64,000 nt of DNA from Microlunatus capsulatus (lineage in GTDB: Bacteria; Actinomycetota; Actinomycetes; Propionibacteriales; Propionibacteriaceae). Positions 60,688-61,159 of this stretch are shown here, one piece after another. Below the pieces are notes generated by a model. That model did not search any database. It saw only the letters and a program-made list of their open reading frames with translations, and had not been told where the DNA came from. The stretch covers positions 1,054,001 to 1,118,000 of the forward strand of contig NZ_JAGIOB010000001.1 of assembly GCF_017876495.1 (NCBI RefSeq), read 5' to 3'. Position 1 is the stretch's first letter; every line of letters begins with the position of its first letter. Both the position numbers and the translations under genes were made by a program.

Positions 60688-60703
60688 TCGAACGCCTGTT
60701 CGA
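60688..60703 (+). promoter_or_regulatory. SOS (LexA) box
   Basis: TCGAAC-GCCT-GTTCGA, a perfect palindrome identical to the actinobacterial LexA consensus. It lies 8 bases upstream of the -10 TAGGGT (60712-60717), where LexA would block polymerase. Confidence 0.85.
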
Positions 60704-60723
60704 ATGAGGGTTAGGGTGTGACC

Positions 60724-60966
60724 GTGTCCACCCAGCCGCAGGAGCCGGACCTCCGGCACGTCTGGGTGCAGGGCTCCGCGGGCTTCGGTGACCCGGTGCC
60801 GGCGGTGGTCATGGGGTGGGCTCCGGCCCCCGTCCGCCACGCCGGCGCCTCTCCCTGGATCTGCCTGGTCGCCGCCTGCCCGCAGGGCACGGCCCTCCTC
60901 GTGGAGTGGGTCAGCGGCGACCGCGTCGTCGGTGTCCGCGACCCCACACCCGCCGATGGAGGCTGA
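60724..60966 (+). CDS. Small SOS-controlled protein of unknown function (first of pair)
   Basis: An 80-residue protein I cannot assign. It starts MSTQPQEPDLRHVWVQG and continues with GWAPAPVRHAGASPWICLVAACPQG and VEWVSGDRVVGVRDP. A RHVWV motif is shared with the next gene. GTG 60724 is chosen because TAGGGT ends six bases before it, as in other leaderless genes here; GTG 60718 is possible. The perfect SOS box upstream implies LexA repression and DNA-damage induction. Confidence 0.75.
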   Translation: MSTQPQEPDLRHVWVQGSAGFGDPVPAVVMGWAPAPVRHAGASPWICLVAACPQGTALLVEWVSGDRVVGVRDPTPADGG

Positions 60967-61159
60967 GGGCCGGCGACGTCGCCACGTCTGGGTCGACCTC
61001 GGCGGCGGCGGGCGGCATCCCGGCCTCGTCCTCGACTGGCGGCGCAGCCAGGACGGCCGGTGGGAGGCCCAGGTCGCCGTCGTCCGACCGCACTGGCTGC
61101 TCACCGCCTGGTACCCCTCCACAGCGCTGAGCCCGGTCGCCGACGACCGGTGGCGCTGA
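60956..61159 (+). CDS. Small SOS-controlled protein of unknown function (second of pair)
   Basis: A 67-residue protein overlapping the previous gene by 11 bases. It carries RRHVWVDLGG, PGLVLDWRRSQDGRWEAQVAVV and HWLLTAWYPSTAL, forming a likely small beta-rich fold. It shares the RHVWV start with its neighbour and was too short for routine calling, but codon use and the shared motif support it. ATG 60956. I recall similar short proteins beside error-prone polymerase genes in actinobacteria, but this is unverified. No polymerase gene is in the window. Confidence 0.68.
   Translation: MEAEGRRRRHVWVDLGGGGRHPGLVLDWRRSQDGRWEAQVAVVRPHWLLTAWYPSTALSPVADDRWR

Follow-up and report, generated by a model that had tools for sequence, protein, structure and literature searches.

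In Microlunatus capsulatus, a perfect palindromic LexA box lies directly upstream of two overlapping genes for small paralogous proteins, which sequence profiles place in a patchily spread actinomycete family whose loci, where examined, are mostly preceded by a LexA box with at most one mismatch. One of the two proteins is confidently predicted to fold as an SH3-like barrel. The reading to which we lean, with somewhat less than even confidence, is that the cassette is a LexA-repressed two-gene operon, whose paired barrels would form an adaptor acting in trans on the damage-response machinery.

The LexA box and the two overlapping genes

The features of the cassette, with positions in the window (the whole stretch of 64,000 nucleotides analysed), are listed here together with the lexA gene located elsewhere in the same genome.

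60688-60703, plus strand: LexA (SOS) box TCGAACGCCTGTTCGA, perfect palindrome (sequence search; conserved in congeners)
60712-60717, plus strand: putative -10 element TAGGGT (read by eye; TANNNT equivalent in 7/7 cassettes)
60724-60966, plus strand: ORF1, 80 amino acids, first RHVWV-family protein (reading frame, conservation)
60956-61159, plus strand: ORF2, 67 amino acids, second RHVWV-family protein, predicted SH3-like barrel (reading frame, conservation, model)
4092539-4092730 (genome position), minus strand: LexA_DNA_bind domain match, lexA

The palindrome TCGAACGCCTGTTCGA, of the actinobacterial LexA type, is the only perfect site in the window. A search of the window for the 14-mer LexA core, with up to one mismatch allowed, gave three sites against 1.94 expected by chance, so that the imperfect LexA-like sites carry no meaning. 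The gap between box and TAGGGT is 8 nt, and a further 6 nt separate TAGGGT from the GTG at 60724. There is a second in-frame GTG at 60718; the alignment of relatives favours the start at 60724, and the ORF1 message beginning with this GTG is probably leaderless. The perfect SOS box next to a -10 hexamer, proposed in an earlier note on this DNA, is thereby borne out, and the leaderless 80-residue gene that it described holds as probable.

Across the 4,409,943 bases of the genome there are five exact copies of the 16-mer; allowing up to one mismatch raises the count to 25 sites, against five for a reversed control pattern. One of the other perfect boxes precedes imuA'-imuB-dnaE2 at 3.88 Mb, 2.8 Mb from the cassette (NCBIfam identified ImuA' and the error-prone polymerase, and Pfam recognised ImuB as an IMS protein), another is located at a HEPN_SAV_6107/Pol IV cluster, and another stands beside lexA, where boxes with at most one mismatch lie at 4092913, 4093044 and 4093111, within about 0.4 kb. 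Since only five perfect boxes are present and three of the four others adjoin known SOS genes, the box at 60688-60703 is one of a few strong LexA sites in this genome. Two features of an actinobacterial LexA regulon, a palindromic promoter box kept in relatives and a lexA gene with boxes in the genome, were found. We also observed, on the other side of the lexA box cluster (4092539-4093126), a gene for 126 amino acids without family match, and the fifth perfect box (4247246-4247261) precedes a gene for 122 amino acids without Pfam or NCBIfam match, another SOS candidate of unknown function.

ORF1 and ORF2 overlap by 11 nt, stop included, both carry the RHVWV motif, and they are paralogues (hhalign probability 97.7, E 1.9e-12). 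Their median net charges in the genus are -3 and +2, respectively, so that the pair leans opposite ways. Neither protein matched Pfam, NCBIfam or PHROGs at E up to 10, the NCBIfam and PHROGs searches covering these two members of the family. Two database matches were rejected: the sole PADLOC match of the two proteins, between ORF1 and a type IV Cas6 profile (E 0.012), and one methyltransferase at E 1.7 in the sequence search of the PDB. The flanking genes encode a TetR regulator, a short-chain dehydrogenase and an aldo/keto reductase; a polymerase or recombinase is therefore not adjacent. On all these points (a 67-residue gene overlapping the 80-residue one, the shared motif, no nameable family, no neighbouring repair polymerase or recombinase) the earlier description stands.

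Conservation of the cassette and spread of the family

As a query, ORF1 found matches in 15 of 57 related genomes at E up to 0.01, the window's own included. A seven-row ORF1 profile matched 11/20 genus genomes at E up to 0.001; seven of these matches span the full length and have E below 1e-36. In the taxonomic family, at least 12 of the 147 genomes matched. The distribution in the genus is patchy. Both frames are kept in six further genus genomes, at 42–55% identity to the window proteins. The motif GAAC-N4-GTTC is present at the same place in 7/7 full cassettes, the window's included, and CGAAC-N4-GTTCG is exact in four of them and has one mismatch in three. Reading by eye, we found in all seven a TANNNT and then a GTG shortly downstream of the box, and in all seven the second family gene overlaps or adjoins the first. 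The first frame of one draft genome (G005) lacks a start that is in register with the conserved GTG, which may be an assembly error or a real difference. Between the two closest relatives, dN/dS is 0.055 for ORF1 and 0.224 for ORF2, and on these ratios both overlapping genes are under purifying selection. The earlier note had named a lack of frame conservation in relatives as a refutation; frames and box alike were found in 7/7 congeners with a full ORF1 match. The flanks of the cassette differ between species, except in one close pair (G014/G017); together with the distance to imuA'-imuB-dnaE2, this upholds the view of the cassette as a self-standing unit.

In the class as a whole, an ORF2 profile found matches at E up to 0.001 in at least 29 of 296 genomes, and in the phylum a narrower profile did so in at least three of 396. 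The conserved family features are RH[VC]WV, PGLLLEWR, GWEG/A-x-V and a late tryptophan. A scan for the Nocardioides-like subgroup returned 52 loci, mostly from Nocardioides, with Marmoricola, Pimelobacter and Janibacter also represented. Against Pfam, 26 family members gave stray single matches only: DUF4597 (E 3.2e-4 in one member), Agenet, a Tudor-type domain (E 0.07), CopD (0.14), Crystallin (0.21), DUF6566 (0.43) and a plant domain (1.4). The Nocardioides proteins (L111-L162) have N-terminal extensions upstream of RHCWV that often hold a motif GIPLxxRVR, which the window proteins do not have; the looser pattern [PA][LM]xxR is present in 46/52 loci of the scan, a count made without a control.

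The LexA box accompanies the family at most of the loci examined. Scanning up to 260 nt upstream of the matched stretch for CGAAC-N4-GTTCG with at most one mismatch, we found a box at 48/52 Nocardioides-type loci (28 perfect) versus 1/48 and 2/51 in the two stretches of these loci that served as controls, which contained no perfect box, and at 35/47 family loci of related genomes (14 perfect) versus 0/45 and 1/45 in controls; these counts are descriptive only, because related loci are not independent events. For two of the four unboxed loci in the 52-locus set, a contig end lies less than 200 bases from the start of the locus. The 47-locus set includes the seven window-type cassettes, L169 and L170 (probably non-members) and L051, which is also in the 52-locus set (as L132, Nocardioides sp. 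SYSU D00038). It leaves out the ORF2-profile matches without a locus, the second genes of pairs and six weak ORF1 matches (L010, L012-L015 and L017; E 7.9e-4 to 0.0055), which are unlike family members and none of which has a box at up to one mismatch. No LexA box was found within 250–300 nt at a fused member in genome G009, at the Yimella plasmid member or at the phage MinS1 member, all described below. The SOS box and gene pair that the earlier note described were thus found to be conserved, boxes preceding most of the family loci examined.

Small ORFs are common in high-GC DNA, and a random palindrome could stand by chance before spurious frames. This explanation is refuted by the box and frames in 7/7 cassettes, by the purifying selection and by the boxed loci of both sets, and we give it next to no weight.

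Predicted fold and comparison with known SOS proteins

The AlphaFold2 model of ORF2, built with 27 relatives (pLDDT 84.8, pTM 0.69), has strands at residues 10–14, 20–30, 36–44, 47–54 and 58–60, with a short helix turn before the last one, and ORF2 is confidently predicted to be an SH3-like barrel with five strands, similar in type to Tudor, chromo and KOW domains. ORF1, modelled alone, reached a pLDDT of 51.2 (low confidence) with strands in the same order, and it is predicted by homology to share the barrel fold. In Foldseek, the PDB entry that best matched the ORF2 model was the Tudor domain 6if4 (E 0.032); chromo, PWWP and 53BP1 Tudor domains came next, and a second structure comparison gave PHF19 (Z 7.9, rmsd 2.2, 55 residues aligned), PWWP (7.8) and NusG KOW (6.9). 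These matches are tied and below the level of kinship, in a range reached by many small barrels (Z below 8, Foldseek E no better than 0.032); they speak for a type of fold and not for a function. In a viral structure library, the best matches of ORF2 were uncharacterised phage proteins (E 1.5e-3 and 2.1e-3).

Two readings of the barrels draw on these neighbours. The one ranked second, which we consider doubtful, takes them as Tudor adaptors that would bind RNA polymerase and couple transcription to repair in the SOS response, as the Tudor and NusG KOW neighbours may suggest. There are precedents: it has been argued that CarD and PcrA/UvrD bind to RNA polymerase through their Tudor domains, and DinX is proposed to do so (PMC6511836). 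Against it, none of the 26 family members has a Pfam match to those families, and an identity with the CarD, PcrA or DinX Tudor domains was rejected for this reason; among the structural matches listed (best 50 of each comparison) there is also no UvrD, PcrA, CarD or YolD entry, which is not evidence of absence and, for CarD and PcrA, proves nothing either way. The other reading is that the barrels bind DNA or RNA directly, for instance single-stranded DNA at stalled forks. The structural neighbours of ORF2 include a PWWP domain with single-stranded DNA and the C-terminal barrel of an integrase, and the mobile form of the pair, considered below, lies near ssb and dprA; the domains are nevertheless near neutral, with a median net charge of 0 in a 28-row family alignment, besides the -3 of ORF1 and +2 of ORF2, and we judge direct binding unlikely.

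A third possibility is an SOS-induced toxin or cell-division inhibitor. Some small SOS-controlled proteins, DinQ and SulA among them, act in one of these ways. The predicted soluble, folded barrel and the paralogous nature of the pair, which is not a toxin with an unrelated antitoxin, argue against such a role, and we hold it to be very unlikely.

Among known systems, YolD (PF08863), the SOS-controlled partner of Y-family polymerases in Gram-positive bacteria, offers one of the closest comparisons: like YolD, the family proteins are small and predicted to be LexA-controlled and to form an SH3-like barrel, and at the loci examined they are encoded apart from a polymerase, as YolD can be. YolD and UmuD' have been argued to be SH3-like partners of Y-family polymerases, and YolD can be encoded apart from its polymerase (both PMC6511836). 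The cassette differs from YolD in the lack of a YqjW/UvrX-type polymerase neighbour (a feature that is not absolute in YolD), in its Tudor-type structural neighbours and in its paralogous pairs, and an identity with YolD was rejected, since neither the window proteins nor the 26 family members matched PF08863 at E up to 10. With UmuD' and the stand-alone ImuB-C the family shares the character of small, beta-rich SOS accessory subunits (PMC6511836), but it has its own promoter and no profile similarity to the one ImuB-C sequence compared (hhalign probability 0.1–0.2), UmuD being compared through Pfam only. The predicted Tudor-type SH3-like barrel is likewise shared with the Tudor domains of CarD, PcrA/UvrD and DinX (DUF3553), where it is a bacterial protein-binding module (same source); those are, however, parts of larger proteins that are not defined by LexA control. 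The HEPN_SAV_6107-Pol IV cluster of the same genome also lies near a perfect LexA box, but it contains a polymerase and consists of other proteins; no similarity of the family to the Pol IV N-terminus or to a protein of the HEPN cluster was found.

Using the genome's own ImuA', ImuB, DnaE2 and Pol IV as tblastn queries (E up to 1e-5), we found none of the four genes at any of the 24 regional and 52 Nocardioides-type loci, each covering about 6 kb or less, and adjacency to a polymerase was rejected for the family loci examined. A DnaE2 match of at least 70% is present in 11/11 genus genomes with a family match and in 8/9 without one (G010 lacks it); the co-occurrence is uninformative, because DnaE2-like polymerases occur with and without the cassette.

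Pairs, mobile elements and a proposed role in the SOS response

A profile over all loci detected two adjacent family domains in 7/7 cassettes, 14/52 Nocardioides-type loci and 2/4 plasmid loci. Among the loci counted, L151 has a second gene interrupted by a stop codon, and L162 runs off the end of its contig. In genome G009, ORF1 and ORF2 are fused in a single frame (L103 7972-8481); genes that by eye resemble those for HNH proteins, cytosine methyltransferases and integrases lie around the fusion. In a tree that is poorly resolved (few columns, 23/44 inner branches open), the N-terminal half of the fusion joins the ORF1 clade (support 96), and the two partners in the Nocardioides pair fall in different clades, so pairing may have arisen more than once.

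A search of plasmid records with the family member of genome G208 led to five records, and a search with ORF2 found none. Three of four plasmid loci are boxed, with one mismatch each (Nocardioides QY071, Pimelobacter N40 and Nocardioides JS614), and the fourth (Yimella) is unboxed. The Nocardioides-type pair sits in a shared backbone, with dprA at 11/14 loci within the DNA examined and often DUF4192, SSB and a GIY-YIG protein as neighbours; a single-gene locus (L148) has much the same surroundings. The two proteins of the Janibacter copy share 89% and 94% identity with those encoded on a Nocardioides plasmid, and this identity and the shared backbone point to a mobile element that crosses orders. 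Across L107, L108 and L144-L161, plasmid and chromosomal loci of Nocardioides, Pimelobacter and Janibacter, we observed GIY-YIG, the boxed pair, dprA, DUF4192, SSB and ParB, not all of them everywhere. Separately, protein UIU47046.1 of Microcystis phage MinS1 (L106 2914-3204), encoded beside an integrase gene, resembles the G208 member (39%, E 1e-3). The ORF1 search of phage records found no match, and in IMG/VR neither alignment A5 nor the MinS1 protein retrieved a relative.

On plasmids and islands the pair has dprA, DUF4192 and ssb as neighbours, which could mean that it modulates RecA or LexA, as a feedback or anti-SOS function useful to the mobile elements that carry it, and plasmid leading regions with psiB offer a parallel. 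Since 38/52 scan loci and the window cassette are not of the mobile-backbone pair type, we regard this function as quite unlikely.

We hypothesize instead the adaptor acting in trans. LexA bound at a box next to the -10 element would block the promoter; upon DNA damage, cleavage of LexA caused by RecA would release a probably leaderless, overlapping message from which both barrels would be made together. The recurrence of pairs and the one fusion suggest that ORF1 and ORF2 may then assemble into a heteromeric adaptor, which would bind another damage-response protein in trans, most plausibly of the translesion or recombination machinery. Small SH3-like barrels are often docking modules. This property favours the adaptor, as does the precedent of YolD and UmuD', small SOS proteins unrelated to the family (PMC6511836). 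We also count in its favour the dprA and ssb neighbours of the mobile form and the opposite charge lean of the pair, and against it the missing polymerase neighbour, the lack of sequence similarity to YolD and, in one comparison, to ImuB-C, the unboxed members, the modest fold scores, the low pLDDT of ORF1 and the patchiness of the family. A more far-reaching proposal, which we hold to be improbable, is that the pair is an undescribed actinomycete SOS effector, a two-chain Tudor-like module put together more than once from paralogous barrels, serving in trans as the missing small subunit of the damage-induced polymerases, a counterpart of UmuD', and adopted by mobile elements beside ssb and dprA.

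The cassette fits a known kind of system, an SOS regulon that includes small accessory proteins. None of the libraries searched has a curated model of the family, which occurs as singles, pairs and a fusion and is also plasmid-borne. The actinomycete SOS response matters for mutagenesis and drug tolerance. For Streptomyces venezuelae, the authors of PMC9380542 state that most LexA-associated genes with differential regulation have no known function, and in the open-licence full texts on actinobacterial LexA/SOS and on small or Tudor-like SOS proteins, which were consulted in part, we found no description of the family. The related genes appear to be a component of the bacterial response to DNA damage that had not been described before, and the named Nocardioides hosts make the family directly testable. 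If the barrels are adaptors of a polymerase or of RNA polymerase, they would be a new part of the damage-tolerance machinery of the phylum.
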